Below are positions 30,293-47,352 of a stretch of 64,000 nucleotides of DNA, piece after piece. How positions within the stretch are numbered: position 1 is the stretch's first letter; every line of letters starts with the position of its first letter. This DNA comes from Heyndrickxia coagulans 36D1. GTDB taxonomy: Bacteria; Bacillota; Bacilli; Bacillales; Bacillaceae_C. Under the pieces are notes generated by a model. The model did not search any database and was not told where the DNA came from. It worked only from the letters and a program-made list of their open reading frames with translations. A program made the translations under genes and the position numbers. The DNA lies in the NCBI RefSeq assembly GCF_000169195.2, contig NC_016023.1, positions 2,728,001-2,792,000 on the forward strand. Direction: 5' to 3'.

Positions 30293-30298
30293 CAGGTT

Positions 30299-30327: not shown

Positions 30328-30356
30328 AATAGCAGCGATGCAAAACGGAAGGGGCG

Positions 30357-30995: not shown

Positions 30996-31011
30996 CAAGG
31001 CAGGTGGGAGT

Positions 31012-31614
31012 ATGGCAAAGATTATCGGCTTAACAGGCGGGATTGCAAGCGGCAAAAGCACGGTGTCCAATATGCTGAAAACAAAAGGGTTTACGATTGT
31101 CGATGCGGATATTGCCGCAAGAAAAGTGGTCGAACCCGGCGAACTTGCGTATGAACAAATCATTGAAGCGTTCGGCGAAGGGATTTTGCTGCAAGATCTC
31201 ACGCTTGACCGGAAAAAACTCGGGGCACTCATTTTTGCGGATGAAGCACTCCGGATGAAACTAAACAGCATTGTCCACCCTGCAGTCCGGGCCTGGATGA
31301 CGCGGGAAAAGGACCGGGCAATTGAAAATGGGAAAAAAACTGTCTTTCTGGATATCCCGCTTCTTTTTGAAAGCCGGCTTACCTATATGGTTGAACGCAC
31401 CATCCTCGTTTACGTGGATGAAGAGACGCAGTTAAAGAGATTAATGACCCGAAACGGCCTTTCAGAAAAAGAAGCGCAGATGCGGATCCGGGCGCAAATG
31501 CCGCTGAGCGAAAAAAAGGCACTGGCGGATGCGGTGCTCGACAACAATGGCAGCCTGGAGGAAACAAAACAGCAGCTTGAAAAAATCGTGTCAGATTGGC
31601 AGCTCGTTCCATGA
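31012..31614 (+). CDS. coaE: Dephospho-CoA kinase
   Basis: Phosphorylates the 3'-OH of dephospho-CoA in the last step of CoA synthesis. 200 residues. P-loop GLTGGIASGKSTV (residues 5-17), DADIAARKVVEPG (about 33) and DIPLLFES (about 114) match the family. It follows ytaF by 16 bp. A terminator begins within its last codons. Confidence 0.95.
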   Translation: MAKIIGLTGGIASGKSTVSNMLKTKGFTIVDADIAARKVVEPGELAYEQIIEAFGEGILLQDLTLDRKKLGALIFADEALRMKLNSIVHPAVRAWMTREKDRAIENGKKTVFLDIPLLFESRLTYMVERTILVYVDEETQLKRLMTRNGLSEKEAQMRIRAQMPLSEKKALADAVLDNNGSLEETKQQLEKIVSDWQLVP

Positions 31615-31636
31615 TGGGTACATCATGGTTTTTTTT
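31609..31636 (+). terminator. Terminator after coaE
   Basis: CCATGATG pairs with CATCATGG across a 4-nt loop, then eight T. It overlaps the coaE stop codon. Confidence 0.9.
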
Positions 31637-31675
31637 ATGCAAAAATAGGGGAATAACGCTACATAACTTTTAAAA

Positions 31676-31686
31676 TATGATATACT
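31676..31686 (+). promoter_or_regulatory. CcpN operator box 1 overlapping the gapB -10
   Basis: TATGATATACT fits all 11 positions of the CcpN consensus TRTGHYATAYW. Its last six bases are the TATACT -10 of an extended -10 promoter (TGATATACT). Confidence 0.7.
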
Positions 31687-31710
31687 AATTGATGAATAAT
31701 GGATTAAAAG

Positions 31711-31721
31711 TATGTCATTTA
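31711..31721 (+). promoter_or_regulatory. CcpN operator box 2 upstream of gapB
   Basis: TATGTCATTTA fits 10 of 11 positions of TRTGHYATAYW, 35 bp after box 1, in the 5' leader. Confidence 0.5.
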
Positions 31722-31745
31722 TTATTCGAAGGAGTTGTCTGCACT

Positions 31746-32780
31746 GTGGAAACAAAAATTGCGATTAATGGTTTCGGCCGCATCGGCAGAATGGTTTTCA
31801 GAAAAGCCATGATGGATAACGCTTTAAATATTGTGGCGGTGAATGCCTGCTATCCGGCGGAAACACTGGCACATTTGATTAAATATGACTCCATCCACGG
31901 CGTATTTCCCGGAGAAGTGGAAGTGGAAGAAGAGGAAGCACTCATTGTGAACGGCAAACGCATCCGGCTTTTGGCGGAACGCAATCCGGCCCAACTGCCG
32001 TGGGGAAAAATGGATATTGATGTGGTAATTGAAGCAACCGGAAAATTCAATGCAAGGGAAAAAGCCGCGCTCCATCTTCAGGCAGGCGCGAAAAAAGTAC
32101 TGTTGACAGCGCCCGGGAAGAATGAAGATGCCACCATTGTTTTAGGGGTAAATGAAAACGTTTTAGATATCGAGCGGCATCATATTATCTCGAACGCTTC
32201 CTGCACCACAAACTGCCTGGCACCGGTCGCGAAAGTACTTGATGAACAATTCGGGATTGTAAACGGCCTGATGACAACAGTCCATTCTTATACGAATGAC
32301 CAGAACAATATCGACAATCCGCATAAAGATTTAAGGCGTGCCCGGGCCTGTGGCAAATCGATCATTCCGACGACAACCGGGGCGGCAAAAGCGTTAGGCC
32401 TTGTCCTCCCGCAACTGAAAGGGAAACTGCACGGCATGGCGCTGCGTGTTCCGACCCCGGATGTATCGCTAGTGGACCTTGTCGTCGATTTGAAAAAAGA
32501 AGTGACGGCAGAAGAAGTGAATGATGCATTTAAGGCGGCGGCGAAAGGCTCGCTGCAAGGCATTTTGGACTATACAGAAGTGCCGCTCGTTTCTTCGGAT
32601 TATACGACAAATCCGTACTCGGCCATTGTCGACGGCTTATCCACGATGGTCATGGATGGAAGCAAAGTCAAGGTGTTGGCCTGGTACGATAATGAATGGG
32701 GCTATTCTTGCCGCGTCGTACAACTGGCACAGCTCGTCGCGGAAAAAATGGAAGAAACCGGGAAAATCAATATTGCCTAA
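31746..32780 (+). CDS. gapB: NADP-dependent glyceraldehyde-3-phosphate dehydrogenase, gluconeogenic
   Basis: Runs in the gluconeogenic direction with NADPH in Bacillus. About 344 residues. Rossmann start INGFGRIGRMVFRKA, catalytic Cys in SNASCTTNCLAP (about 153), His in TTVHSYTNDQ (about 180) and WYDNEWGYS near the end. The early segment VAVNACYPAETLAHLIKYD resembles GapB rather than GapA, which has a conserved NAD-selecting Asp there. Start GTG 31746 follows AAGGAG by 11 bases; the frame opens at 31689. Two CcpN-like boxes imply repression during growth on glucose. speD, next in B. subtilis, is missing. Confidence 0.93.
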   Translation: METKIAINGFGRIGRMVFRKAMMDNALNIVAVNACYPAETLAHLIKYDSIHGVFPGEVEVEEEEALIVNGKRIRLLAERNPAQLPWGKMDIDVVIEATGKFNAREKAALHLQAGAKKVLLTAPGKNEDATIVLGVNENVLDIERHHIISNASCTTNCLAPVAKVLDEQFGIVNGLMTTVHSYTNDQNNIDNPHKDLRRARACGKSIIPTTTGAAKALGLVLPQLKGKLHGMALRVPTPDVSLVDLVVDLKKEVTAEEVNDAFKAAAKGSLQGILDYTEVPLVSSDYTTNPYSAIVDGLSTMVMDGSKVKVLAWYDNEWGYSCRVVQLAQLVAEKMEETGKINIA

Positions 32781-32784
32781 GCCG

Positions 32785-32816
32785 AACGGAGCAGCACCAG
32801 CCTGCTCCGTTTTCGT
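32785..32816 (+). terminator. Terminator after gapB
   Basis: AACGGAGCAG pairs with CTGCTCCGTT across a 7-nt loop, followed by a T-rich tail. Confidence 0.82.
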
Positions 32817-33098
32817 TACCAGTTTTCAGAGCCGCGCCGGAGGATGACTTGCTGAATAAAAACATAAGTTTCAGGCCCATTGGCAGATGGAAAAACAGCG
32901 GTTTTCCGGAAATAGGCGCCCATTTGCATTGTATCCGGCATGGGCAAAAGGATAAAAATGAGCCGGCGCAATTTTTTCAGGATAGAGAGATCTGGTCCGT
33001 TCTGCATAACAGATGGCGGCGGGACGCTTCCAAGATAGGAAGGAAAACCGCCCGTATTGATTGGAAAAGGAAATCTGATGCATGTGTAGCCGTTGTAA

Positions 33099-33128
33099 TT
33101 GACGTGGCAGCCGGGTCTATTTTATGAT
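33099..33128 (+). promoter_or_regulatory. Promoter ahead of the M81 gene
   Basis: TTGACG (33099-33104), 18 bp, TATGAT (33123-33128). The -10 lies inside a degenerate copy of the island's shared operator. Confidence 0.5.
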
Positions 33129-33130
33129 AA
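33115..33130 (+). promoter_or_regulatory. Degenerate copy of the shared island operator
   Basis: GTCTATTTTATGATAA differs at 3 of 16 positions from GTCTATTTAACGACAA, the core found identically at 36131 and 43429. Confidence 0.4.
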
Positions 33131-33295
33131 GTTTATCCTATTTACCGTCCATTTTGCGACGAGTTTCACGGCAGCAAATGGATGTAAGCCAGCAGAAACG
33201 GCATCGGAAATTGGTCCGCATCCGCATTGCTTTATAGTTAATAGGAAGAATATTTTTAAAATAAAGCTGCACAGTGCTATGGAGGGATGGCAGGT

Positions 33296-34765
33296 TTGCA
33301 AAAAAAGAGGATTGCGATCGGCGGCATTATGCACGAAACCAACACCTTTTCTACGGTCAAAACAACGGTCGATCTATTCAAATGCTATGAATGGCAAGTC
33401 GGGGAGGAGATTGTCGACCATCATGCGGAGGTAAACGACTATCTTGGCGGCATGATTACAAAAGGGCATGAACTGGGCGTGGAACTTGTGCCTGCATTTT
33501 GGGCTAATACGAATCCAACCGGGCTGATTACGCGCGACGCATACCGGGAATTGATTGAAACGCTTTTGAACCATATCAGCAAGACGGGAAAACTTGACGG
33601 CATTTGCCTCGCCCTGCACGGCGGCGGTTTGGCAGAAGGGATCGATGATTTGGAAGGAACCATTCTTTCCGAAATCCGGAAAATGGTCGGATACGGCATT
33701 CCGATCGTCGCCACCCTTGATTTGCATGCCAATCTTACAGAAACGATGGTGAAGGAAGCAGATGCATTGTTCGGGGTAAACTTTTACCCACATACAGACT
33801 GTTTTGCACGGGGACAGGAAGCATTGGAAAACTTGTTGAAGATCATAAATGGCGAGCTGAAGCCTGTCATGTACGTGGAAAAGCTTCCCATGATGATTGC
33901 TTCGTCCACCACAGATCTGCCGCCGGCAAAAGAGATTAACGAACTTTGCTGGAAATGGGAAGAACATCCATCCGTCATCGATTGTACATTTTTTCATGGA
34001 TTTTGCCAGACGGATATTCCCGACATGCGCGTTTCAGTTTTAACGATGACAAATGATGATGAAGAGCTGGCCCGGGAGGCTTCCAAAGACGTGTCGAGGA
34101 AAATTTGGGAACTGCGCGATCTATTTTATATCGGTTACCCCAACCCGGGAGAAGGGCTCGAACAGGCATTGGCTGTGCCGGGCGGACCGGTTGTAATAAA
34201 TGAAATGTCCGACAATCCCGGTGCAGGGGCTCCCGGAGACGGTACTCACCTGTTGAAAGTGCTGGTCGAGAGGAATATTGAAAACTCCTGCTTCGGGTTT
34301 ATTTATGACCCGCAAACAGCAGATTTGGCGCATCAGGCCGGTTGCGGCAACTGGATTACCACCCTTCTTGGCGGAAAAACCGATTCCCTTCATGGGGAAC
34401 CGCTGCGAGTAAAAGCCTACGTCAAAACCTTAACAGACGGCCGGTTTGTGCATACAACGCAAATGTACCGCGGGAAAAAAGCGGATCTCGGAAAGTCGGC
34501 ACGGCTTCAGGTCGGCAATGTGGACATCATTGTATGTTCCAAGCGGGCGCAAACGTTTGATGAGCAAATATTTAAACTGCACGGCATAGACGTCACCCAG
34601 TATAAGATTGTCGCCTTGAAGTCTGAAAACCATTTCCGCTCTTCTTTCACGCCGCTTGCCAAAAAGATTATACCTGTTGATTCACCGGGATTAAGCAGCT
34701 ACAATCTGCTGAACTTCCAATACCGGCGGGTGAAAAGGCCGGTACTGCCACTTGACCCTGTATGA
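33296..34765 (+). CDS. M81-family (MlrC-like) metallopeptidase
   Basis: 489 residues related to MlrC, the zinc peptidase that completes breakdown of microcystin, a cyclic peptide with D- and unusual residues. The N-terminal domain has IAIGGIMHETNTFS (residues 4-17), LDLHANLTET (about 142) and YPHTDCFARG (about 163), which carry the expected Asp/His metal ligands. The C-terminal MlrC_C domain contains DNPGAGAPGDGTHLL (about 305). Start TTG 33296 sits 9 bases after GGAGGG; an ATG at 33287 abuts that site. No signal peptide is seen, so it acts in the cytoplasm, presumably on peptides brought in by the downstream ABC transporter. The natural substrate is unknown. Confidence 0.88.
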   Translation: MQKKRIAIGGIMHETNTFSTVKTTVDLFKCYEWQVGEEIVDHHAEVNDYLGGMITKGHELGVELVPAFWANTNPTGLITRDAYRELIETLLNHISKTGKLDGICLALHGGGLAEGIDDLEGTILSEIRKMVGYGIPIVATLDLHANLTETMVKEADALFGVNFYPHTDCFARGQEALENLLKIINGELKPVMYVEKLPMMIASSTTDLPPAKEINELCWKWEEHPSVIDCTFFHGFCQTDIPDMRVSVLTMTNDDEELAREASKDVSRKIWELRDLFYIGYPNPGEGLEQALAVPGGPVVINEMSDNPGAGAPGDGTHLLKVLVERNIENSCFGFIYDPQTADLAHQAGCGNWITTLLGGKTDSLHGEPLRVKAYVKTLTDGRFVHTTQMYRGKKADLGKSARLQVGNVDIIVCSKRAQTFDEQIFKLHGIDVTQYKIVALKSENHFRSSFTPLAKKIIPVDSPGLSSYNLLNFQYRRVKRPVLPLDPV

Positions 34766-34772
34766 AAAAATA

Positions 34773-34797
34773 GAAACGGGGGGGGAGCCCCCGTTTC
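34773..34797 (+). other. Strong hairpin after the M81 gene
   Basis: GAAACGGGGG pairs perfectly with CCCCCGTTTC. No T tract follows on the plus strand (an A run precedes it), so it may stabilise or process the transcript rather than stop it fully. Confidence 0.55.
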
Positions 34798-34888
34798 CAT
34801 TCAATAGTAAAAAAACGTGCCAAAAGGGGTTTCATCATTGTAAAAAGGTTAAAAGCATTAAAATTTATTTTTGAAATCAGGTGGTTGT

Positions 34889-36001
34889 ATGGGAGAAAAC
34901 TATGAACAACAGATTTTGGATTGGTTTGAAGATTTTCATGCAAATCCGGAAGTAAGTTTCCGGGAATTCAGGACAACGAAAAGGATTGCGGAAATATTGG
35001 AACAGCTCGGAGTAACATACCGGCGTTTTCCTGATATCACCGGGTTGATTGCCGATATTGGTGAAGGCGAGGAAACGGCCGCCGTCCGTGCCGACCTGGA
35101 TGCATTGTGGCAGGAGGTGGATGGCGTCTTCCAGGCGAACCACTCCTGCGGGCACGATGCGCATATTTCGATGGTGCTTGGGGCGTTGTTGTATATAAAA
35201 AACCAGCCGCTGCCACCCAATAAAAGAATCCGTTTTATTTTTCAGCCGGCCGAGGAAAAAGGAAACGGCTCCCTTGCAATGATTGAGCGCGGCGCGTTGG
35301 AAAAGGTCACACATCTCTTTGGTATCCATCTCCGACCGGTGGAGGAATTGCCATTTGGAAAGTTTTCCCCTTCCATTCATCACGGCGCTGGTATTTTTCT
35401 GGAGGGGAAAATTTTCGGAACGGATGCGCATGGCGCCAGACCGCATGAAGGAAAGAGCGCCATTGATGTCATTGCCACCCTGTACCAATTTATAAAAACG
35501 CTTTCTTTCCCGCCTTTCGAATCGTATTCAGTCAAATTGACAAAAATTGCGGCGGGCAGCGAGAATCTAAACATTATTCCGGGAACGGCCGAGTTTGGCC
35601 TCGATATCCGAGCCAGGAAAAATCTCATTCTTAACCGGATTAAAGAAAGAATGGAAGAAGGCCTTTCCGGATTAAAAACCCTTTTTGGTGTCGAAATACA
35701 ATGGGAGTGGACAGACTACACACCGGGAGCTGAAGTCTCGAAAGAAGCAGAGGACATTGCCGAACAAGCGATTCGCCGGATAGCCGGCCCGAATGCGATT
35801 GCCGCTCCTGTTGTTACAACCGGTTGCGACGATTTTCACTTCTATACCATTAAAAAGCCGGAAGTAAAAGCGTCTATGATCGGCATTGGAGCTGATCTCA
35901 AACCGGGCTTGCATCACCCGCACATGCATTTTAACCGGTCGGTTCTGGATACCGGCGCAAGAATTTTGGCCGATGTCCTTCTTCGTTGCTCTTTTGGCTA
36001 A
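34889..36001 (+). CDS. M20-family amidohydrolase/peptidase
   Basis: 370 residues, similar in layout to AmhX and N-acyl-amino-acid amidohydrolases. Metal ligands: Asp in AVRADLDALWQEV (about 72), Cys/His in NHSCGHDAHISM (about 90), Glu-Glu in FQPAEEKGNGS (about 124) and a late His in GLHHPHMHFN (about 345). A dimerisation domain with GTDAHGARPHEGKSA (about 175) lies between. It probably releases an amino acid or acyl group from imported peptides. Start ATG 34889 (MGENYEQQ) is preceded by CAGGTGG; the frame extends 6 codons further. No signal peptide. Confidence 0.88.
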   Translation: MGENYEQQILDWFEDFHANPEVSFREFRTTKRIAEILEQLGVTYRRFPDITGLIADIGEGEETAAVRADLDALWQEVDGVFQANHSCGHDAHISMVLGALLYIKNQPLPPNKRIRFIFQPAEEKGNGSLAMIERGALEKVTHLFGIHLRPVEELPFGKFSPSIHHGAGIFLEGKIFGTDAHGARPHEGKSAIDVIATLYQFIKTLSFPPFESYSVKLTKIAAGSENLNIIPGTAEFGLDIRARKNLILNRIKERMEEGLSGLKTLFGVEIQWEWTDYTPGAEVSKEAEDIAEQAIRRIAGPNAIAAPVVTTGCDDFHFYTIKKPEVKASMIGIGADLKPGLHHPHMHFNRSVLDTGARILADVLLRCSFG

Positions 36002-36084
36002 GGTAAATAACTGCCGTCATGTGACAAAAAGCGGCAGGAACAGCTTCCTTCCCCTATTTACTTTTTCGAAAAGTCTAAAATTGA

Positions 36085-36114
36085 TTGACAGCTGTTCAGT
36101 CCATTGACTATAAT
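36085..36114 (+). promoter_or_regulatory. Strong sigma-A promoter of the ABC transporter operon
   Basis: Perfect TTGACA (36085-36090), 18 bp, perfect TATAAT (36109-36114). Start of transcription expected near 36121. Confidence 0.85.
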
Positions 36115-36129
36115 AAAAGTATTATATAG

Positions 36130-36147
36130 CGTCTATTTAACGACAAT
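36130..36147 (+). promoter_or_regulatory. Shared 18-bp island operator, copy at the transporter promoter
   Basis: CGTCTATTTAACGACAAT, identical to the element at 43428-43445. It lies about 9-26 bp past the expected transcription start, a position fit for repression. Its ends read GTC...GAC, a loose dyad. Confidence 0.7.
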
Positions 36148-36173
36148 TTAAAGAAAGTGGGGTTCTCCTGTTG

Positions 36174-37760
36174 ATGAGAAAAAAACCGATTTATTTTCTG
36201 CTCTTCATGCTTGTCATCGCCATGGCACTTTCCGGATGTTCCGGCAAATCAACGACAAAGTCTTCAAATGCGCCCGCTTCAAATAAAACATCTGAATCAG
36301 GCGGTACATTGAAAATTGCGGCACAAGCCCAGCCGGATACACTCGACCCGACAGTTACAACAGCTGAGGCAACCGCCCAGCCCGCAAGACTTGTATTTGA
36401 ATCACTGGTGACGTTGGATAAAAACTATAAAGTGGCCCCGCAGCTTGCTGAATCCTATAAAACAAGCAGCGATGGAAAAACGGTCACTTTTAAACTGCGA
36501 AAAGGCGTAAAATTCCACAATGGCAAAGAAATGAAAGCGGATGATGTGATCGCCTCGATGCAAAAGTGGGAGAAAAATGCCTCGCTGACGAAATCGATCA
36601 TGGACGGGGCGAAGTGGGAGAAAAAAGATGACTACACGGTAGAACTGGTTCTAAAGAAACCTTCATCTGTTGCAATGACGATTCTGGCAGACCAAACCCA
36701 GCTGGCCGCAGTAATGCCAAAAGAAATCGCCGAATCGGCGGGTCCTACTGGGGCAAAAGAATATGTTGGGACGGGCCCATTCAAATTTTCAGGATGGAAA
36801 AAGGACCAGTACCTCCATTTTACAAAGTTTAAAATTTATCAGCCCGTTAATAAACCGGCGAGCGGCGTTGCCGGGAAAAAAGCGGCTAAGGTAAAGGATA
36901 TCTACTGGTATTTTGCGCCTGATGCATCCACCAGGAGTGCCGGCCTGATCAGTGGGCAATATGATATTGCCCTCAGTGTTCCATATGATGCGGTGAAACA
37001 AATTGAAAGTACGCCGGGGAAGAAGATCCAGCCCTATACTTACGGGATGGAAATCCTCGTCTTCAACAAAAAACAAGGCCTTTTCAAAAATGTAAAAGCC
37101 CGCCAGGCAGTAAACGATGCCTTGGACAAAAAAGTCGTTCTGCAATCCGCATTTACGGATAAACGATTCTATAAATTGGAACCTGGCTTATTCCGGCCGG
37201 AACAGAAAGTATTGTATTCTGATGCCGGGAAGGAAGTTTATAATTCGAAAAATTTGGACAGGTCTAAGCAATTATTGCAAGCATCCGGCTATAAAGGCGA
37301 AACAATCAAGGTTCTGACCAGTCGGGATTATCCGCATCACTATAACGCAGCCATTGCCACCCAGCAACAATTGGAGAAAATCGGAATGAAAGTCAAACTT
37401 GATGTATATGACTGGGCCACTCTGCTTGAACATCGGGAAAATCCGGGCGACTATGACATTTTCTTCACCGGCTGGGATACGGGAATCGTGCCGCATCAAT
37501 ACGGTTTCCTGGATTCCAAGGCAAACTGGCCGGGCTGGACAAACGATCCGAAAATCGATCAATTGCTGGATCAGATCAGTTCTGCCAAAACGCAGGATGA
37601 GACAAAAGCACTCATTCGTGAGCTGCAACAGGAATTCTGGCAATACCTGCCGGTGATCAATCTTGGAACTTACAAAAATGTCAATGCCTGTTCCGATAAA
37701 GTCAAAGGATTTAAATGGTTTATTGGTCCGGTTCTCTGGAATGTCAGCATAGAATCATAA
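36174..37760 (+). CDS. Oligopeptide ABC transporter solute-binding lipoprotein
   Basis: A 528-residue family 5 (SBP_bac_5) binding protein. The signal peptide ends in lipobox ALSGC, with the lipidated Cys near residue 23, followed by a Ser/Thr/Lys linker. QAQPDTLDPTVTTAEAT (about 50) and GKTVTFKLRKGVKFHNGKEM (about 102) are typical of Opp/Dpp receptors. It is anchored outside the membrane and feeds the two permeases downstream. TTG 36171 is an alternative start. Ligand specificity cannot be read from the sequence; neighbours point to peptides. Confidence 0.93.
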   Translation: MRKKPIYFLLFMLVIAMALSGCSGKSTTKSSNAPASNKTSESGGTLKIAAQAQPDTLDPTVTTAEATAQPARLVFESLVTLDKNYKVAPQLAESYKTSSDGKTVTFKLRKGVKFHNGKEMKADDVIASMQKWEKNASLTKSIMDGAKWEKKDDYTVELVLKKPSSVAMTILADQTQLAAVMPKEIAESAGPTGAKEYVGTGPFKFSGWKKDQYLHFTKFKIYQPVNKPASGVAGKKAAKVKDIYWYFAPDASTRSAGLISGQYDIALSVPYDAVKQIESTPGKKIQPYTYGMEILVFNKKQGLFKNVKARQAVNDALDKKVVLQSAFTDKRFYKLEPGLFRPEQKVLYSDAGKEVYNSKNLDRSKQLLQASGYKGETIKVLTSRDYPHHYNAAIATQQQLEKIGMKVKLDVYDWATLLEHRENPGDYDIFFTGWDTGIVPHQYGFLDSKANWPGWTNDPKIDQLLDQISSAKTQDETKALIRELQQEFWQYLPVINLGTYKNVNACSDKVKGFKWFIGPVLWNVSIES

Positions 37761-38068
37761 AATTCGGCAAGGCAGGCGTTTGCATCTTTGCACTGAAAAA
37801 TCACATTTCAAGCGGCTCTGGTTTTAAATGCTGGCTGGGGAACCCCTTGGCTTTTTACGAAACCTCGTAAAAAGGCATACCATTTAATCGCGTATTGCAA
37901 AACGATCACGGATACAGCCTAACCCTTATCACCTGGGGGTTAAGCTGTATCATAAAGTGGCCGCAAGCGGAAATGCCCGCTTTGCCCATCTTTATAAAAG
38001 AATTTAGCAGCAAAAAAGAATATCAGAATGATCAACCCTACGACAGATTTGCAAAGGGGATTTGCCAA
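37761..38068 (+). other. Gap between binding-protein and permease genes with two hairpins
   Basis: About 300 bp, non-coding. Stem 1: CTTTTTACGA (37851-37860) with TCGTAAAAAG (37865-37874). Stem 2: a 15-bp stem with one mismatch, 37911-37925 with 37937-37951. Neither ends in a T run. Such structures between a binding-protein gene and its permeases often lower downstream expression. Confidence 0.6.
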
Positions 38069-39022
38069 TTGAAGAGATATATTTTAACCCGGCTATTGTC
38101 TCTTATACCGGTATTACTGATTGTAGCAATCGTTGTTTTCTTTCTGATTCACTTAACGCCGGGAGACCCGGCCTCCGTTATCCTCGGATCTCAGGCATCA
38201 CCGGCCGAGGTGGAACAATTGCGGGACAAACTTGGCCTGAATCTACCGCTTTACCAACAATTTTTCGATTGGTTTATCGGGCTTTTTCGGGGAGATCTTG
38301 GCTGGTCAATCTCCCAAAACAAACCGGTACTGGATGCTTTTCTGGAACATTTGGGGCCGACGCTCTCGCTCTCCATTCTTGCCCAGGCCATTTCTATCAT
38401 TTTGGCCATACCAATTGGCATCATTGCCGCTAGGAAGCGGGGGTCTAAAACTGACCAGTTCTTCATGGTGCTAGTTATGCTCGGAATGGCAGTACCGAGC
38501 TTTTTATTAGGGCTGTTGCTCATGCAGCTGTTCGGTGTAAAGCTGAAATGGTTTCCTGTGGCCGGATATGAACCATTAAGCGCAGGGGTATGGAATCATT
38601 TGCGGTATATGATCATGCCCGCTTTGGCCCTTGGCATCATCCAAACCGCCGTCATTGCCAGAATGACCCGGTCATCCATGCTGGACGTGCTGAGTGCCAA
38701 TTACATTAAAACAGCAAAAGCAAAAGGGCTTAAACAGCGGATCGTGATTTATAAACACGCCCTCAGAAATGCTTCCATTGCCATTATTACCGTTGTCGGG
38801 GAGTCTTTCGGTTCGCTGATCGCCGGTGCGGTAGTGACAGAAACCGTATTTAATCTGCCCGGGATTGGCCAGCTGATCATGAACTCCATTTTGCGCAGAG
38901 ATTATGCAGTCATTCAAGGGGTTATTTTACTGGCATCCGTCTCCTATCTGCTCGTCAATTTAATCGTTGATTTATTGTACGGCGTCATCGATCCGAGAGT
39001 CCGTTTAAACCGGAAAACATAA
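38069..39022 (+). CDS. Peptide ABC transporter permease, DppB/OppB type
   Basis: 317 residues with six predicted membrane helices. It begins with MKRYILTRLLSLIPVLLIVA, the usual DppB N-terminus, and has the signature FFLIHLTPGDPASVILG (about 26) and the EAA-like loop YIKTAKAKGLKQRIVIYKHA (about 212) that docks onto the ATPases. The start is TTG 38069, with AAAGGGGA 8 bases upstream; the open frame extends further back without homology. Confidence 0.92.
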   Translation: MKRYILTRLLSLIPVLLIVAIVVFFLIHLTPGDPASVILGSQASPAEVEQLRDKLGLNLPLYQQFFDWFIGLFRGDLGWSISQNKPVLDAFLEHLGPTLSLSILAQAISIILAIPIGIIAARKRGSKTDQFFMVLVMLGMAVPSFLLGLLLMQLFGVKLKWFPVAGYEPLSAGVWNHLRYMIMPALALGIIQTAVIARMTRSSMLDVLSANYIKTAKAKGLKQRIVIYKHALRNASIAIITVVGESFGSLIAGAVVTETVFNLPGIGQLIMNSILRRDYAVIQGVILLASVSYLLVNLIVDLLYGVIDPRVRLNRKT

Positions 39023-39151
39023 TTGATTACGGCAAAACCGTGGCTTAGCCAAAGTAATTTTTGGAAAAACCGGGCTCCGAAACCGATTTTAAAAAACAAG
39101 ATATGTTTTCAGCCCATTTTGTTTTGCCGAACAGCAGAGGAGGGGAAGAAA

Positions 39152-40057
39152 TTGGAAGTAGAGACAACATTGGAAATGGAGAACATGCTCTCCACAAAGA
39201 ACCGGCTGAAAAAAGAACGATTCAACCTGTTTGTAAAACGGTTTTTTGCGAACCGGCAGGCCGTTTTAGGCAGCATGATGGTCATTTTATTGGTTTTATT
39301 TGCTTTGATCGCCCCTTTTATCACAAAATATACGCCGCTTCAAATTGACCCTGCCCATCGTCTCCAGGCGCCCGGTTCCATCCATTGGTTCGGCACGGAT
39401 AACTACGGGCGCGATCTGTTCAGCCGTGTTGCTTACGGTGGACGGGTTTCACTGGCTGTGGGGCTATCCGCTACCGTGCTTACCGCCCTGATCGGAATGG
39501 TCACTGGTTTATATGCTGCCTATTACCGATTGCTGGATCATGTTTTAATGCGGATTTGTGATGGGCTGATGGCTTTTCCTGATATCCTTTTGGCGATTGC
39601 CATTACCGCTGTTCTCGGGCCCCGTCCGGTCAATGTTGTAGTTGCCATTACTGTCGTTAAAATTCCGTCAGTGGCGCGGGTTGTCCGGTCTGTGGCATTG
39701 GTGGTGAAGGAAAAAACCTATATTGAGGCGCTCAAGGCCCAGGGAGCCGGTTCGTTTCGGATTATTTGGCGCCATATTGCACCCAACACGATATCACCGT
39801 TTATCGTTCAGGCAACCTATGTTTTCGCATTGTCGATCATTCTGGAAGCAGGCCTCAGTTTTCTTGGCGCGGGCGTGCCGGCTCCCAATCCGAGCTGGGG
39901 AAATATTTTGTACGATGGAAAGATTGTTATTTTTAGTGCCTGGTGGATGACGGTTTTTCCTGGAATGTTTATTATCTTGTCCGTTTTGGGCCTCAATTTA
40001 TTTGGTGATGGGCTCCGTGATTTGCTGGATCCCCATACAAACAAGGCGAACAAGTAA
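39152..40057 (+). CDS. Peptide ABC transporter permease, DppC/OppC type
   Basis: 301 residues. N-terminal OppC_N region (NRQAVLGSMMVILLVLFAL) followed by HWFGTDNYGRDLFSRVAYGG (about 78), then an EAA loop YIEALKAQGAGSFRIIWRHI (about 190). The start is TTG 39152, preceded by AGGAGGGG; the frame runs on upstream to the end of the DppB-type gene but the extra 43 residues are not family-like. Pairs with the preceding permease to form the channel. Confidence 0.92.
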   Translation: MEVETTLEMENMLSTKNRLKKERFNLFVKRFFANRQAVLGSMMVILLVLFALIAPFITKYTPLQIDPAHRLQAPGSIHWFGTDNYGRDLFSRVAYGGRVSLAVGLSATVLTALIGMVTGLYAAYYRLLDHVLMRICDGLMAFPDILLAIAITAVLGPRPVNVVVAITVVKIPSVARVVRSVALVVKEKTYIEALKAQGAGSFRIIWRHIAPNTISPFIVQATYVFALSIILEAGLSFLGAGVPAPNPSWGNILYDGKIVIFSAWWMTVFPGMFIILSVLGLNLFGDGLRDLLDPHTNKANK

Positions 40058-40104
40058 AGCGGCTTCACACGGCAATAATGCGAAAAAGAAAGGGGGAAGC
40101 ATAC

Positions 40105-41118
40105 ATGCAGGAATGCCTGCTGGAAGTAAAAGATTTAAAAACATCCTTTTATACGGAAAAAGGTTTGGTGACAGCAGTGGACGGGGTCAGTTTCACGGTC
40201 CATTCCGGGGAAACGCTCGGCGTAGTGGGCGAATCCGGCTGCGGGAAAAGCGTAACAGCTGAGTCCATTATGCGCCTTTTGGATGAAAGTGCGACCCGGT
40301 ATGAAGGGGAAATCAATTACAAAGGAAAAAACTTGCTAAAGCTTCCGGAAAAAGAAATGGAAGCGATTCGCGGCAACGAAATTGCAATGATTTTTCAGGA
40401 TGCGATGACCTCGTTGAACCCTGTTTACACGATTGGGAATCAGATCGCCGAATCGATCATGGCCCATTCTGATTTAAACAAGAAGGAAGCTTACGAAAAG
40501 GCGGTGGAGATGCTCCGGCTTACCGGCATTCCTTCACCTGAAAAAAGGATACATGAGTATCCCCATGAAATATCCGGGGGCATGCGGCAACGGGCGATGA
40601 TTGCCATGGCGTTGTCATGCCGCCCGCAATTGCTGATCGCAGATGAACCGACTACAGCACTGGACGTTACGATCCAGGCTCAAATCTTGGAAGTGATGGA
40701 AGAATTAAAGAAAGAACTGAATATGGGAATTATTTTGATTACCCATGATCTTGGCGTCGTAGCGGAAGTCTGTACCCATGTGGTCGTCATGTATCTGGGG
40801 CAGGTCATTGAAGAAGCGGATGTGGAGACGATTTTTTCCAAACCGCTCCACCCCTATACAAACGGCCTGTTAAAGTGCATTCCGCAATTGGATGGAGACC
40901 GTACAAAGCCGCTTTTTACCATTGAAGGGGTAGTTCCTTCGCTGGACGATATCCCTCCCGGCTGCCGGTTTGCCGGGCGCTGCCCTTTTGCGGACAGCAA
41001 ATGCCGGAAGGAGCTCCCGCCATTGGAAGAAGCAGCGTACAGGCATAAAATCAGATGCTGGCATTACGAGGAAATTCAAAAACAGGGGGCATTTGAAGAT
41101 GTTGCAATCCCATCTTGA
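40105..41118 (+). CDS. Peptide ABC transporter ATPase, DppD/OppD type
   Basis: 337 residues. Walker [10 protein letters not shown] (about 42), Q-loop [10 protein letters not shown] (about 96), signature SGGMRQRAM (about 157), Walker [13 protein letters not shown] (about 176) and switch His in THDLG (about 213). The C-terminal oligo_HPY region has [14 protein letters not shown] (about 288) with cysteines that in relatives bind an iron-sulfur cluster. GGGGG before ATG 40105. The 3' end overlaps the next ATPase gene by 20 bp. Confidence 0.93.
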
Positions 41119-42106
41119 ACGTGAAACCAAAGAGCAGACAAACATCCCCCTCCTCGAAATTAGAAACTTAAAAAAATACTTTCCGATTACCACCACACTC
41201 GGGAAAACGAAGGGCTTTGTCAAGTCTGTGGACGGGGTTGATTTTGATCTGTATGAAAACCAAACATTGGGGCTGGTGGGTGAATCCGGATGCGGAAAAA
41301 GCACAACAGGGCGGACGATTTTACGGTTAATCGAACCGACAGATGGCGAGGCCATTTATCAGGGAAAGAATATTTTTCAATTAAAGGGAAAAGCGCTTAA
41401 GCAAATACGGAAGGAATTTCAGATTGTTTTTCAGGATCCGCACTCTTCGCTGGATCCGAAAATGAGGATAGGCGATGCCGTGATGGAACCGATGAAAATC
41501 CATCATATCGGAACAAAAAAAGACCGGATGGACCGGGCAATGGAACTGTTACTAAAGGTCGGCATCCGGGAAGACCAATTTTACCGTTATCCGCATGAAT
41601 TTTCCGGAGGGCAACGGCAGCGGATCGGGCTGGCAAGGGCGCTTGCCGTGAATCCCAAGCTGGTTGTCTGCGATGAACCGGTTTCGGCTCTCGATGTATC
41701 GATTCAGTCGCAGGTGATCAATCTCCTGGAAGAAATCCAGGAGCAGTTTCAATTAACCTATTTGTTTATTTCCCATGACTTAAGCGTTGTCCGGCACATG
41801 GCTGATCAAATTTGTGTCATGTATTTGGGTCAGATTGTCGAGCGTGCGCCGACAGATGAATTGTTCACACACCCGCTGCATCCGTATACACAGGCCCTGT
41901 TGTCGGCAATCCCGCTTCCCAACCCGAAGCTGAAAAAGGAGAGAATCATTATAAAAGGTGAGGTGCCCTCTCCGATCGATCCGCCATCCGGCTGCGTTTT
42001 TCACACCAGGTGCCCGTATGCAACGGCCCTGTGCAAAACCGAGCGCCCACAGGCAAGGGAACTGGCGCCGGGCCATATCGTATCATGCCATCTGGCTGAA
42101 AGCTGA
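41099..42106 (+). CDS. Peptide ABC transporter ATPase, DppF/OppF type
   Basis: 335 residues. Walker [16 protein letters not shown] (about 61), Q-loop FQDPHSSLDPKMRIG (about 113), signature SGGQRQRIGLARAL (about 168), Walker B LVVCDEPVSALDVS (about 189) and SHDLSVV (about 225). C-terminal oligo_HPY with PPSGCVFHTRCPYA (about 298). Start ATG 41099 lies within the previous gene. It completes a five-gene importer. The gene is convergent with the regulator, 49 bp apart. Confidence 0.93.
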   Translation: MLQSHLERETKEQTNIPLLEIRNLKKYFPITTTLGKTKGFVKSVDGVDFDLYENQTLGLVGESGCGKSTTGRTILRLIEPTDGEAIYQGKNIFQLKGKALKQIRKEFQIVFQDPHSSLDPKMRIGDAVMEPMKIHHIGTKKDRMDRAMELLLKVGIREDQFYRYPHEFSGGQRQRIGLARALAVNPKLVVCDEPVSALDVSIQSQVINLLEEIQEQFQLTYLFISHDLSVVRHMADQICVMYLGQIVERAPTDELFTHPLHPYTQALLSAIPLPNPKLKKERIIIKGEVPSPIDPPSGCVFHTRCPYATALCKTERPQARELAPGHIVSCHLAES

Positions 42107-42155
42107 TGCCACTTTTGCAGAACGGTTTTCATCAGTGACAGACTCTCGAAGCTGC

Positions 42156-43406
42156 TTATTTATAAATGGGCATATTCATTTGGTAAATGGCCCGGGGGCG
42201 GCCTTGCTGGTAAGTCATCTCATTGCCGACTCTTTCTGCATAGCCATGGTCGCTCAATTTTTTTAAAATGCGTTCTGCAGACCGCCGTGTTACCTGTAAA
42301 TATTCGGACAGGTCTGCGGCGGTAAAATGCGGGGACTGCCTTGACCTGCTAAATTCAACCAGCTTTGACAGGTTGGCCGGACTTAATCTTGTCTCTCTCG
42401 CAATCTCAAATAATTCAGGATCATCGTTTTTCAAGCGTTGCTGCTTGGCTTCGTTGGGGAAAGGCCCCAGCAGTTCTTTGTCTCCTGTCAGGACATAGCA
42501 GCAATGGGCGGCTCCGTCCTTTTCAGCGAAGTGGAGGGCCACTTTGGCATTCCGTTCTGCTTCCGTCGTTGTGGCACCAAAGCCAAAACCGACTGTAACA
42601 GGTTTCTTATCGCTTATAGACCCGTGGGAAAAATTTTGCTCGATCATGGCTTCGATATCGCCACGGGTGCTGTAAAAAACAAACAATGTGTCGTCCAGCT
42701 TTTGAAAAGAAGCATGGATTTTTTGGGCAAAACGGGCCATACTTGCCTGCGGGATGGTCGCAGAAATGTACCCGACTGCTACCTGGGAAGCTTTGCTTTT
42801 ATACAATTCAGCTTGATTTTTGGCATGCTGCAACCCCCGGATAAGGGATACTTTTGGATCATTGATCCGTATGGAGGGGATCTTAAGCGTTTGTAATTTG
42901 TCATAGACAGCATGGATGCTTGTTAATGCAAGATCCACTTTTTCCTGCCTCCAAAGGGCCATATGGAATTGTACAATTTGGTCCAGGTCAAAATTCTTTT
43001 CAACGAATTGGCGGTAGTCCAAAACATGGGAAGGGACAGCAACATGAATCTCGTTTAAAACATTGGTGACAACGGATGAATCAATGATATCAATGGAGAT
43101 CCGTTCCGGGTTAATGTGCTGGTTATACAGGATGGAAAGCAATGATGAAGCAATCGCCATCTCATCTGTAGCCAGGTAGACTGTGGGAATCGGCAGGTTT
43201 TCCCGGTCTTTTTCCGAAAAATAGTAAGGCAGGGCACCTGAAAATAAAATCACATCGCACGGTTTCATTTTCCTGACAAGCCCGGATGCATCCTGCGGTT
43301 TCTGATAAATGTAAGGATCAATTTCAATATCGGCAACCCAGGGAGAAACCGTTTCAATTCTGTTGATAAATTCATGAGACCCGATTACGGCAATTTTTGT
43401 AGCCAT
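42156..43406 (-). CDS. Putative transcriptional regulator with GGDEF-like and winged-helix domains
   Basis: 416 residues. The N-terminal third (1-140) resembles PrpR_N/periplasmic-binding-like sensor domains (KMKPCDVILFSGALPYYF). The middle (about 205-310) has a degenerate nucleotide-cyclase-like pattern (VTVGFGFGATTTEAERNAKV) without an intact GGDEF. The C-terminus (about 355-405) is a winged helix, HFTAADLSEYLQVTRRSAER with DHGYAERVG as wing. It is divergent from the epimerase gene, and the shared 18-bp element overlaps its own predicted transcription start, so it most likely controls itself and the island. Start is the second of two adjacent ATGs. Ligand unknown; a peptide or amino acid is a guess. 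Confidence 0.7.
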   Translation of the reverse strand: MATKIAVIGSHEFINRIETVSPWVADIEIDPYIYQKPQDASGLVRKMKPCDVILFSGALPYYFSEKDRENLPIPTVYLATDEMAIASSLLSILYNQHINPERISIDIIDSSVVTNVLNEIHVAVPSHVLDYRQFVEKNFDLDQIVQFHMALWRQEKVDLALTSIHAVYDKLQTLKIPSIRINDPKVSLIRGLQHAKNQAELYKSKASQVAVGYISATIPQASMARFAQKIHASFQKLDDTLFVFYSTRGDIEAMIEQNFSHGSISDKKPVTVGFGFGATTTEAERNAKVALHFAEKDGAAHCCYVLTGDKELLGPFPNEAKQQRLKNDDPELFEIARETRLSPANLSKLVEFSRSRQSPHFTAADLSEYLQVTRRSAERILKKLSDHGYAERVGNEMTYQQGRPRAIYQMNMPIYK

Positions 43407-43427
43407 CATGCACCTCTTCTTCTAAAA

Positions 43428-43445
43428 CGTCTATTTAACGACAAT
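43428..43445 (+). promoter_or_regulatory. Shared 18-bp island operator, regulator/epimerase copy
   Basis: CGTCTATTTAACGACAAT, identical over 18 bp to 36130-36147. It lies over the predicted start of the regulator transcript and upstream of the epimerase start codon. Confidence 0.7.
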
Positions 43446-43472
43446 ATATCAAATCATCAAAAGTTTTGTAAA
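43443..43472 (-). promoter_or_regulatory. Predicted promoter of the regulator gene
   Basis: On the minus strand: TTTACA, 18 bp, extended -10 TGATATATT. The -10 touches the shared operator. Confidence 0.5.
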
Positions 43473-43490
43473 TAGAAAGGAAGTTTTACA

Positions 43491-44600
43491 ATGCAAATTA
43501 CCGCCATTCATTTATACGCCGTCCAGTTTCCCTTGAAAGAACCGTTTGTGATCAGTTATCATGCTTATCATACCATGCCCGCAGTGATTCTGAAAATGGA
43601 GACAGATGAAGGGATCACGGGCTACGGGGAAGGGGTCCCGGATGAACATGTGACCGGCGAAACATGGGAAAGTGTCTTTTACACGCTTAAAAATACCCTT
43701 GGCCCCGCTTTAATCGGCCAAAATCCGTTGGAAATTGAAAAAATCCATGACCGGATGAACCAGACCATTTATGCGGCCCCTACATCGAAAGCAGCCGTTG
43801 ACATGGCTTGTTTTGACCTCTCAGGGAAAAAATGGGGCATGCCTGTTTATCAATTGATCGGCGGGCGCTATCATGAAAAATTCCCGCTTGCCTACACGCT
43901 CAGCATTGACTCGCCTGAAGCCATGGCGGAGCAGGCATTGAAAATGAAGAATCAGGGCTACTGTTTTCTAAAAATCAAAGTAGGGACCAGTATTGAAGAA
44001 GATGTGGCACGGATAAAAGCCGTCCGCTCGCGGGTTGGTAATGACATTGCCATCCGTGTCGATGTAAATCAGGGATGGAAAACGAGCACTGCTGCACTTA
44101 AAGCGCTAAAGCAACTGGAAGAATTGCAGATTGATTGGGTGGAACAGCCGGTAGCAGCAGATGATATCGACGGATTGGCCGAAGTAAGGGCGAAAATTGC
44201 GATTCCGGTCATGATTGACGAAGGTTTAAAAGGGACGCGGGAGATGTGGGAAACCATTCAAAAACGGGCGGCAGATAAAGTCAATATTAAGCTCATGAAA
44301 TGCGGCGGGATTTACCCGGCGGTCAAGTTGGCCCACCAAGCCGAGCTCGCGGGAATCGAGTGCCAGATCGGGTCCATGGTGGAATCATCGGTCGGATCGG
44401 CAGCCGGTTTCCATGTGGCTTTTTCGAAAAAAGTGATCACCAGTGTGGAATTGACAGGCCCGCTTAAGTTTTCGAAGGATATTGGCCATTTGACTTATGA
44501 TATCCCGTTTATAAGCCTGCCGGAAAAACCGGGGCTCGGAGTTGAAGTAAATGAAGAAATACTGGAGGAATTGACGGAATTTCAGGAAACCATTCGATGA
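43491..44600 (+). CDS. Dipeptide epimerase (enolase superfamily, muconate-cycloisomerase subgroup)
   Basis: 369 residues. The capping domain (1-120) precedes the barrel, which has all expected catalytic residues: KxK in FLKIKVGTS (about 162), metal ligands Asp in RVDVNQGW (about 191), Glu in WVEQPV (about 218) and Asp in MIDEG (about 243), and the second base Lys in NIKLMKCGG (about 267). This is the arrangement of L-Ala-D/L-Glu epimerases such as B. subtilis YkfB, which acts on murein dipeptides. Substrate cannot be fixed from sequence; other members act on different dipeptides or N-acyl amino acids. RBS AAAGGAAG lies before the ATG. Confidence 0.87.
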   Translation: MQITAIHLYAVQFPLKEPFVISYHAYHTMPAVILKMETDEGITGYGEGVPDEHVTGETWESVFYTLKNTLGPALIGQNPLEIEKIHDRMNQTIYAAPTSKAAVDMACFDLSGKKWGMPVYQLIGGRYHEKFPLAYTLSIDSPEAMAEQALKMKNQGYCFLKIKVGTSIEEDVARIKAVRSRVGNDIAIRVDVNQGWKTSTAALKALKQLEELQIDWVEQPVAADDIDGLAEVRAKIAIPVMIDEGLKGTREMWETIQKRAADKVNIKLMKCGGIYPAVKLAHQAELAGIECQIGSMVESSVGSAAGFHVAFSKKVITSVELTGPLKFSKDIGHLTYDIPFISLPEKPGLGVEVNEEILEELTEFQETIR

Positions 44601-44699
44601 GCATGATGGCTGTCCCGCGGGCGCCATGCCATTTGAAAAGTCCTACGGTGTGATGTCAAGGGTTAAAAACAAGTGAATTGGAAATTTTGTTGGCTCTAT

Positions 44700-46250
44700 G
44701 TCGTAAAAATGGCAATACTGAACTAAGCCTCCAGATAATTGGAATAATCTGGAAGTTTTCAAGTTCAGGCTATCGATGATGGTTACCTGGTTACCTCATC
44801 GCGTTACCTTCTTTTTCGGCGCATAAATTTGATCGTTGCGGAGCAGCGCATCGATCAGGCGCACCAGTTTTCTTGCCGTTAAGACGAAGGCGCGTTTGTG
44901 TGAGTGCTTATGCACCTCACGATATTTCTTTTGGTAAAAGGCGCGGTACTCAGGTTCGTGTCGCCGGACCAGATTGGCAGCCTCAACCAGGTAATACCGG
45001 AGATAACGATTGCCTGTACGCGCAAGCATTTTGTCATCAGCCTCAAAATCACCCGATTGGTGGCGGGGCCAGAACAATCCAGCAAATTTTGCGATCGCGG
45101 CTTGGTCGTCAAAGCGCTCAATGTCGCCGATTTCAGCGAGAATCCCAGCACAGCTCACCGGGCCTATTCCCGGAATGGTCTGGAGGGTATTCGGGATTCC
45201 ATCAAGAACGCGGGCAATCGCCTTATCCAAATCCTTGATTTGGCGTTTAAGATGCCGGATGATCTCAATAGAACTGCCCAGGACCAAGTCAATCGAATCC
45301 TCCACACATTTAGAAAGCCGGTAAGAGGACCGGGCAGCTTTTTGGATGGATGCGGCCAAATCCTCGGGATCGCTAAAGCGGCCATGGCCTTTGGTCTGGA
45401 GATACATCGCTAAGTCCTCCAGAGGCATTTGGGCCATTTCATCGAGGCTATAGGCCTCAAGCAAAAATTCCGTTATGGCATGGCCGAAGACCGGTGTATC
45501 CACTTCAAGGTTAAAGGCACTGAATTTGAAAAACAGATGATTCAAAAATACCTGTTGTTCCCGGGTTAAACTTTGAATCAGGTGATAGCGCATCCGTGTT
45601 AACCGTTGAAGGGCAAGGTATTGTTCTGACTGAATCACGGATTTCGGCAATCTCCCGAAACGCAAGCGGTCCGCAATTACCCAGGCATCTTTGGGATCGG
45701 TCTTGTCCATCTCGGCATAAGCCTTTTTGAAATTTCTCACCAGCTTCGGATTCAGGGTAAACACCTTTGTACGACGCTGTTTCAGCTCGGGATCTTCATG
45801 GAAAAACATTGCCGGGTGCCAACTATACACAGATGTGGCCTCCATGGCGATCTGGATGGTGTCATCCGCCTCCGCATGTTGGAGGATGGCGTCTCTTAAC
45901 TCAGAGGCACCGGGAAGATTGTTTGTCACCGTTTGGGTGGCTAACGTTTCCCCCATTCCATCCATCAGGCAGGCATCGAGGTTTTTGGAGCTCACGTCAA
46001 TACCGACAAATAAGGGCATATGATTTCCTCCTCTCTGTATTGGGATCGATGGAATCGGACGCTTCGGGATATCCCCAGATGGCTTGCCGATCTGTCAGCC
46101 TCGCGTATGAGAACTCATCCGGGCCGTGGGCTGCCTGGAACTGCTCATTTCCAGCACGGAGATCCGGAGGAACGGCCTACGGGTTAGACGTTCAAGCAAG
46201 AACCTGGGGATGCAGACTTTTCGAGTAGTCAGGCTACAAGGAGGGGAAGC
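44700..46250 (-). mobile_element. IS110-family insertion sequence (ends approximate)
   Basis: Built around a 407-aa IS110 transposase. IS110 elements lack terminal inverted repeats and target duplications, so the ends cannot be fixed by eye; the limits given are estimates. About 200 bp of non-coding DNA upstream of the transposase start (46020-46250) is where IS110 elements encode their bridge RNA. A short hairpin (TCCAGAT ... ATCTGGA) lies near 44730-44755 on the other side. Confidence 0.6.
44796..46019 (-). CDS. IS110 family transposase
   Basis: 407 residues. The N-terminal RuvC-like DEDD domain has FVGIDVSSKNLDACL (residues 4-18), AMEATSVYSW (about 60) and EMDKTDPKDAWVIADRLR (about 101). 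The C-terminal Transposase_20 domain has LQTIPGIGPVSCAGILAEIG (about 283) with the nucleophilic Ser, then FAGLFWPRHQSGDF (about 315). RBS AGAGGAGG on the minus strand supports the ATG at 46019. It appears intact. It inserts next to the peptide island and may have taken part in its arrival or in later rearrangement. Confidence 0.95.
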   Translation of the reverse strand: MPLFVGIDVSSKNLDACLMDGMGETLATQTVTNNLPGASELRDAILQHAEADDTIQIAMEATSVYSWHPAMFFHEDPELKQRRTKVFTLNPKLVRNFKKAYAEMDKTDPKDAWVIADRLRFGRLPKSVIQSEQYLALQRLTRMRYHLIQSLTREQQVFLNHLFFKFSAFNLEVDTPVFGHAITEFLLEAYSLDEMAQMPLEDLAMYLQTKGHGRFSDPEDLAASIQKAARSSYRLSKCVEDSIDLVLGSSIEIIRHLKRQIKDLDKAIARVLDGIPNTLQTIPGIGPVSCAGILAEIGDIERFDDQAAIAKFAGLFWPRHQSGDFEADDKMLARTGNRYLRYYLVEAANLVRRHEPEYRAFYQKKYREVHKHSHKRAFVLTARKLVRLIDALLRNDQIYAPKKKVTR

Positions 46251-46430
46251 ATTGACCCAAACGATCCTAAGACCATTATCCGGGAACATCGCGAAGCGTC
46301 CAAGTCCGAACTTGTATTCCGGGCTCGCCCGGAATACAAAATCTTATATTCACTTGTCAATGAGCAGCAGAATGAACTGGAAATTGACATCCACTTTGGA
46401 TTTAAACTTATTATACGAGGAGGGTTATAA
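46251..46430 (+). pseudogene. Possible 3' remnant of an interrupted gene
   Basis: A frame with native-looking codon use encodes about 59 residues ending EIDIHFGFKLIIRGGL and a stop at 46428-46430, 5 bp before the GNAT gene. It has no start of its own and its 5' side runs into the IS110 flank, so it may be the tail of a gene cut by the element. The product is not recognised. It contains a perfect 11-bp inverted repeat (GTATTCCGGGC / GCCCGGAATAC, 46314-46337). It could also be a chance open frame. Confidence 0.3.
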
Positions 46431-46435
46431 TATAC

Positions 46436-47143: not shown

Positions 47144-47250
47144 AAAATGGAGGTTCATAAAACGGCAGAGATCCTTTATTACGACAGAAAAAAGCCCGAG
47201 GCCGAATCATTCCGTGCCGCAACAGGTGCATAAGCTTTTAAAAAACCGTG

Positions 47251-47276
47251 CGGGGTGATTTTTTCATCCCGTTTTT
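47251..47276 (+). terminator. Terminator between GNAT gene and nrdR
   Basis: CGGGGTG pairs with CATCCCG (one G-U), with a T-rich loop and a T run after it. Confidence 0.65.
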
Positions 47277-47290
47277 CTAATGGCAATCTG

Positions 47291-47319
47291 TTGTCTATTC
47301 GCCTTCTTTTATATATGAT
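47291..47319 (+). promoter_or_regulatory. Sigma-A-type promoter for nrdR-dnaB-dnaI
   Basis: TTGTCT (47291-47296), 17 bp, TATGAT (47314-47319). Confidence 0.6.
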
Positions 47320-47352
47320 GGTAGTAAGAATGTATCAGAACGGGGGGTTCAT

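Follow-up and report, generated by a model that had tools for sequence, protein, structure and literature searches.

A putative peptide-fed D-to-L salvage cluster for basic amino acids around an N-succinylamino-acid racemase in Heyndrickxia coagulans 36D1

At the ykf murein locus, S66 and NlpC/P60 enzymes stand together with an epimerase. An N-succinylamino-acid racemase (NSAR) pathway for the irreversible conversion of D- to L-amino acids was reportedly set out by Sakai et al. in 2006, and a divergent N-succinyl-Arg racemase of Bacillus cereus, known as a single enzyme, is reported to have been described by Song et al. in 2007. Here we analyse a 64,000-base stretch of the Heyndrickxia coagulans 36D1 genome (the window; 2728001–2792000 of a single-contig genome of 3,552,226 bases, 3.55 Mb), in which the genes between gapB (31689–32780) and nrdR (47353–47811) are, on balance, best read as a system that salvages basic amino acids from imported peptides by turning the D- into the L-form. 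The cluster resembles the Sakai pathway in its GNAT, NSAR and M20 enzymes and in its proposed logic, but its NSAR belongs to another enolase-superfamily family (26.0% identity to the canonical type, represented here by that of locus L085), and it adds an Opp importer, an M81 peptidase and a regulator with an operator. With the B. cereus N-succinyl-Arg racemase (PDB 2p88) the window enzyme shares motifs, clade and 70.5% identity. With the mlr pathway of microcystin degradation (MlrB/MlrC) the window cluster has in common an M81 peptidase with the zinc ligands of MlrC, but its importer is different, it is coupled to an N-succinyl inversion pathway and it shows no link to microcystin. The ykfABCD/dpp system of B. 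subtilis (its epimerase treated in a passage of PMC5808125) also combines an enolase-superfamily enzyme with a peptide importer, but the ten window proteins scanned include no D-x-D epimerase, S66 carboxypeptidase or NlpC/P60 enzyme.

From gapB towards nrdR, the + strand carries genes for an M81 peptidase, an M20 hydrolase, a family-5 binding protein, two permeases, two ATPases and the enolase-superfamily enzyme; the regulator (REG), divergent from NSAR, is the only − strand gene of the M81-to-NSAR set. An IS110 transposase, a 235-residue GNAT-fold protein, nrdR and dnaB follow 3' of NSAR. Open reading frames and domain matches bore out this content as the original prediction had given it (M81, M20, importer, enolase-superfamily enzyme and divergent regulator), while its borders had to be moved: no gene starts at 33099, taken as the first base, M81 beginning at 33287, and an end at 44600 omits the GNAT gene, which also belongs to the set as judged from the IS110 gap, a remnant in a sister species and adjacency to NSAR in relatives. 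The genes are as follows.

33287–34765, + strand: M81 metallopeptidase, MlrC-like (PF07364, E 9.6e-94; PF07171, E 1.8e-60; PDB 7ylq, E 3.3e-61)
34871–36001, + strand: M20 amidohydrolase, proposed N-succinyl-L-amino-acid desuccinylase (TIGR01891, E 4.5e-76, above cut-off)
36171–37760, + strand: solute-binding lipoprotein, family 5 (PF00496, E 1.9e-72)
37895–39022, + strand: Opp/Dpp-type permease B (PF00528, E 2.1e-42; true start near 38069)
39023–40057, + strand: Opp/Dpp-type permease C (PF00528, E 2.7e-26, and OppC_N; true start further in)
40078–41118, + strand: ATPase D (PF00005 and oligo_HPY)
40970–42106, + strand: ATPase F (PF00005 and oligo_HPY; NF008453 above cut-off; true start near 41099)
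42156–43409, − strand: divergent regulator REG (PrpR_N-like N-terminus, weak GGDEF/GTP-cyclohydrolase-III-like middle, C-terminal winged helix-turn-helix)
43491–44600, + strand: N-succinylamino-acid racemase, NSAR, MLE subgroup (2p88 match, motifs, tree)
46436–47143, + strand: GNAT-fold protein, 235 residues, proposed succinyl-CoA:D-amino-acid N-succinyltransferase (model, Foldseek, NSAR adjacency)

The enzyme trio GNAT–NSAR–M20 matches an already known route from D- to L-amino acids by way of N-succinyl intermediates. We propose that peptides containing D-Lys or D-Arg enter the cell through the binding protein and the Opp-type transporter, and that the M81 peptidase, whose family and zinc site are evident, would cut them in the cytoplasm. 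The GNAT would transfer succinyl from succinyl-CoA to the free D-amino acid, NSAR would interconvert the N-succinyl-D- and N-succinyl-L-forms, as its B. cereus orthologue suggests, and the M20 enzyme would strip succinate from the L-form only, drawing flux to L-Lys or L-Arg. REG is predicted to bind a tandem operator of 11-bp spacing that follows closely on the −10 box of both the importer operon and the regulator gene itself, and probably keeps the two repressed as long as substrate is lacking. The earlier proposal that the cluster imports and breaks down peptides with D- or unusual residues is still the best reading, although murein L-Ala-D-Glu gives way to basic residues as the likelier substrate.

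The best solved relative of the enolase-superfamily enzyme is 2p88 (E 3.2e-179), which we take to be the characterised B. cereus N-succinylamino-acid racemase and the same protein as the ATCC 14579 enzyme of the docking study cited below. Identity to 2p88 holds over 369 columns, against 42.2% identity to the dipeptide epimerase 3jva. Dipeptide epimerases are marked by a D-x-D motif after the last barrel strand; 3jva and a homologue within the same genome read D-L-D there, whereas residues 320–324 of the window enzyme are E-L-T-G-P, and the motifs D-x-x-V-T-G-E and E-L/M-x-G-P recur in all 39 aligned relatives of at least 45% identity. The homologue with D-x-D (L002, G000:C1:1660282–1661331) lies elsewhere in the genome and has one in-frame TAG counted within it. 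By alignment, the window enzyme retains the K-x-K and second-lysine bases together with the D/E/D residues that are presumably the metal ligands (K161, K163, D191, E218, D243 and K267). A quick tree placed it with 2p88 in one group of 41 rows (SH-aLRT 99), with 3jva and L002 outside and the enzyme of genome G140 as its sister (SH-aLRT 88); seven long branches were flagged, five of them outside the NSAR group, and joins between long branches may be false. The two-lysine mechanism is treated in a passage of PMC5808125, and for a B. cereus ATCC 14579 enzyme of the NSAR group docking predicted the activity of an N-succinyl-arginine racemase (a passage of PMC4372640). In an extract of PMC4922564, ‘N-succinylamino acid racemase 2’ is listed as a separate family, with 61 of 70 NSAR 2 members in one active-site cluster together with dipeptide epimerases. 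From sequence comparison, the window enzyme is very likely an NSAR orthologue of the ‘NSAR 2’ type.

The label of dipeptide epimerase given in the original prediction was therefore dropped, given the absence of D-x-D, the grouping apart from dipeptide epimerases and the identity to 2p88. Its companion idea, that the cluster recycles murein peptides in the manner of ykf with a dipeptide epimerase, draws on the shared superfamily, the Opp-type importer and the presence of peptidases; already disfavoured, it now appears highly improbable, since the Pfam scan of ten proteins found no S66 carboxypeptidase or NlpC/P60 domain and the D-x-D-bearing homologue sits elsewhere in the genome. Both candidates were rejected on motif, tree and missing partners.

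The proposed partners of NSAR in the inversion step are the GNAT and M20 proteins. The structural model of the former (pLDDT 82) indicates a GNAT fold, the Foldseek matches shown being GNAT acetyltransferases (best E 5.6e-9). By sequence its matches are weak, PF00583 being matched by 5 of the 18 aligned proteins at E up to 0.1; the window protein itself had no Pfam match, and scanning it alone against Pfam and NCBIfam was unproductive. We surveyed 249 genomes of the order, in a comparison set of one genome per species, for NSAR matches at E ≤ 1e-100 (26 genomes and 32 places, the window's own included) and for GNAT homologues at E ≤ 1e-10. A GNAT homologue lay within 60 bp of NSAR at 14 of the 32 places, the annotated gaps in relatives ranging from −35 to +31 bp. 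M20 homologues at 52–69% identity stand near NSAR and GNAT in relatives; the true ATG of the window M20 gene is probably at 34889. We regard it as likely that the GNAT is a succinyltransferase and, with similar confidence, that the M20 enzyme is the desuccinylase. In the window the pair NSAR–GNAT is 1,838 bp apart, split by the following element.

44639–46423, − strand: IS110 element (transposase 44796–46019; NF033542, E 1e-75)

The GNAT gene fell outside the coordinates first assigned to the set because IS110 separates it from NSAR. Seven near-identical copies of the element occur in the genome, and the other six match window 44639–46423 at 100% (query bases 39–1823). On its right-hand side the element runs directly up to the ribosome-binding region of the GNAT gene.

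The REG family matched HTH_11 and MarR_2 in 10 of 10 members and PrpR_N in 5 of 10, at E up to 0.1; the REG model was of low confidence (pLDDT 57) with weak Foldseek matches, and a sequence search against PDB returned nothing useful. An operator weight matrix was trained on the REG/NSAR intergenic regions of 15 relatives, with the window excluded, and scored two sites strongly.

36085–36114, + strand: importer operon promoter, TTGACA-18-TATAAT (consensus scan, 12/12)
36126–36154, + strand: operator 1, tandem repeat, core GCGTCTATTTAACGAC, before the binding-protein gene (27.7 bits)
43424–43452, + strand: operator 2, core ACGTCTATTTAACGAC, in the REG/NSAR intergenic region (35.1 bits)

The next non-overlapping site in the 64-kb window reached 8.1 bits, and the maxima of 100 dinucleotide shuffles averaged 10.1 (largest, 22.8). 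The core RCGWCTATWTARCGAC has exactly two matches in the whole genome, operators 1 and 2, with no site at one mismatch and seven at two (26 at up to two mismatches for the reversed control). Across the 249 genomes the core matched exactly at 19 sites, spread over 12 genomes, and the reversed control at 12 sites; an NSAR gene lies at a distance of 49–8668 bp from 18 of the 19, and 11 of those 12 operator-bearing genomes belong to the 26 with NSAR (hypergeometric 2e-11, a figure that ignores relatedness, matrix and pattern being derived partly from the same genomes). A site of at least 15 bits precedes NhaC or the binding protein at 14 of the 15 loci that have a REG homologue versus 1 of the 5 that lack one (p 0.005), a comparison among related loci that counts the 25% REG of three Exiguobacterium loci and was regrouped after the table had been seen; when homologues below 40% identity were not counted as REG, the operator was present at 11 loci and absent from one, against four and four, and the difference was not significant (p 0.11). 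Since the genome has just these two copies of the operator, one ahead of the binding-protein gene and the other separating REG from NSAR, the importer and NSAR very probably form one regulon. Operator 1 begins 12 bases 3' of the perfect promoter and operator 2 just after a −10-like box of REG, positions that would both suit a repressor. The defined operator allows a search for further regulon members. Distant REG-family regulators (24–28% identity) were seen at L073–L081, with M20-type amidohydrolase homologues nearby in seven of the nine loci.

A table of transporters at 39 NSAR loci showed an NhaC-type permease at 18, a YfcC-type permease at 6 and an Opp-type binding protein (at least 40% identity) at 2, so that the Opp-type importer stands where many relatives carry an NhaC- or YfcC-type permease. 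PF03553 was found in all three NhaC-type permeases scanned. Two proteins of each type were scanned with NCBIfam: the NhaC-type pair also match an Arg/Orn antiporter model and the YfcC-type pair a ‘basic amino acid antiporter’ model, in both cases below cut-off. The ligands are likely to be basic amino acids (Lys/Arg) in peptides, rather than murein L-Ala-D-Glu. An Opp-type importer accompanies NSAR in the window, in G140 and in G054, the last of which holds no REG and no M81 within the 20 kb of its locus (L110).

The zinc ligands of the window M81 peptidase (E17, D145, H147 and H169) match those of MlrC by alignment; in a passage of PMC9982164 the latter are E39, D167, H169 and a histidine, printed there as H196 where the alignment puts H191. 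Two candidate control elements precede the gene.

33099–33128, + strand: sigma-A-like promoter before M81, TTGACG-18-TATGAT (consensus scan 10/12, a consensus match only)
33142–33170, + strand: possible weak operator before M81, a degenerate 11-bp repeat (7.6 bits by the weight matrix, background level)

The candidate operator sits relative to the −10 box much as the binding-protein operator does. The original prediction had taken recurrence of the gene set in other genomes as its check, and the set without M20 was found again in G140, a member of another family, where importer, M81, REG, NSAR and GNAT form one run. Identities to the window proteins are 66% for the binding protein, 80 and 72% for the permeases, 75 and 76% for the ATPases, 72% for M81, 60% for REG, 70% for NSAR and 60% for GNAT. 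The M81 gene lies between the importer and REG/NSAR, 59 bp beyond the final ATPase gene and in the same orientation, and because of this gap may be co-transcribed with the operator-bearing importer.

We compared 27 M81 contexts (mostly 20 kb; homologues of at least 45% identity), comprising all 14 non-self contexts of the order survey and 13 chosen by hand, not at random, from 33 further places of a class survey. An NSAR of either family shares the stretch with M81 in 12 of the 27, and these 12 come from ten families; 16 of the 27 have the complete set of four Opp genes. In 11 of those 12 contexts the NSAR is of the canonical NSAR/OSBS type, a distant second family (best matches of the L085 protein: 2zc8 and 1wuf). 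These 11 contexts carry Opp genes in 9, another GNAT in 10, an M20 homologue (at least 40% identity) in 5 and an RpiR-type regulator in 10, in 8 cases at least 40% identical to that of L085; a hydrolase of beta-lactamase fold occurs in 6, Pfam confirmation applying to the L085 and L087 proteins only. The window-type NSAR occurs with M81 in the same place in two of the six genomes that have both, the window genome and G140. That M81 feeds D-residue peptides into the pathway is, in our estimate, marginally favoured. Beta-lactamase-fold hydrolases accompany M81 at L087–L091, L165, L168 and L179, with canonical NSAR in six of these eight, an arrangement that recalls the MlrB/MlrC pair. Loci L096–L101 hold a separate M81 subfamily (31–34% identity to that of the window), each with similar-sized neighbours.

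Several observations weigh against a single peptide-fed salvage system. Outside the window genome, 17 of the 31 NSAR places have no GNAT within 60 bp of NSAR, several of them with M20 next to NSAR, and the window GNAT, cut off by IS110, may be poorly expressed. These points would suit an importer that brings in basic amino acids already N-acylated (N-succinyl or other), with NSAR racemising, M20 deacylating and GNAT secondary; that arrangement seems improbable, as 14 of the 15 places outside the window where identity is at least 63% have GNAT next to NSAR, and M81 and the peptide-type binding protein would be left unexplained. The scanned NhaC-type permeases pass the cut-off of a plain Na+/H+ antiporter model. 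For the operator, L034 has it with no REG in its 21 kb, L067 has REG with no operator before NhaC, and only one of six YfcC genes is preceded by it (L131). No M20 match was found in the G140 run. The M81 operator candidate, at 7.6 bits, stands below unrelated window sites that reach 8.1, M81 occurs without NSAR in 15 of the 27 contexts and it lies apart from the window-type NSAR in four of the six genomes with both (G106, G275, G431 and G540). In G326, M81 (73%) and importer genes (77–80%) closest to those of the window stand together with no NSAR in the stretch. M81 could on these grounds be an independent neighbour with another purpose, the pathway consisting of importer, REG, NSAR, GNAT and M20 only. 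We consider this unlikely, as G140 again has M81 inside the set and an NSAR of either family is near M81 in the 12 contexts from ten families. The salvage system with M81 as its peptidase remains our preferred interpretation.

More broadly, and tentatively, with the odds somewhat against it, these loci could reflect a general, undescribed D-peptide salvage system across Bacilli, in which Opp, M81 (often with a beta-lactamase-fold hydrolase), GNAT, NSAR and M20 were assembled with two distant NSAR families, the sphingomonad mlr microcystin pathway being a specialised relative of its peptidase part. A passage of PMC11070527 models MlrB on a D-aminopeptidase of beta-lactamase fold, and hydrolases sharing this fold are a frequent addition at loci with the second NSAR family. 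Among the matches listed, the titles and abstract starts of the open-access (PMC) literature held no link between M81 and NSAR; nor, among the matches listed, did that literature yield the coupling of Opp with M81, the regulator and operator or the recurrence with two NSAR families, which is not proof of novelty. The cluster offers a testable physiological role for N-succinylamino-acid racemases and for MlrC-type M81 peptidases outside microcystin degradation, and its analysis puts right an easily made annotation error, that of calling the enzyme a dipeptide epimerase or muconate cycloisomerase.

The island between gapB and nrdR is extra DNA relative to congeners, in the place of a 127-residue open reading frame that is the sole occupant of the interval in G001 and G003 (L185, L187) and that we take to be speD; the congener G004 has no open reading frame of at least 100 residues there. 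In a sister species of about 95% nucleotide identity (G002, L184), window 32819–46653 is absent, and the counterparts of 26701–32818 and 46654–50885 adjoin with only 58 bases between them. Its gapB–nrdR interval keeps a 5'-truncated GNAT gene (residues 74–235, 96% identity), and we count GNAT as part of the island because this remnant persists there. On the simplest reading, based on one genome, the island once included GNAT and G002 later lost the greater part of it. Near the place that the island occupies in the window, an M81 gene (51% identity) also lies in G540 (L169), on the other strand and a few genes from gapB–nrdR–dnaB.

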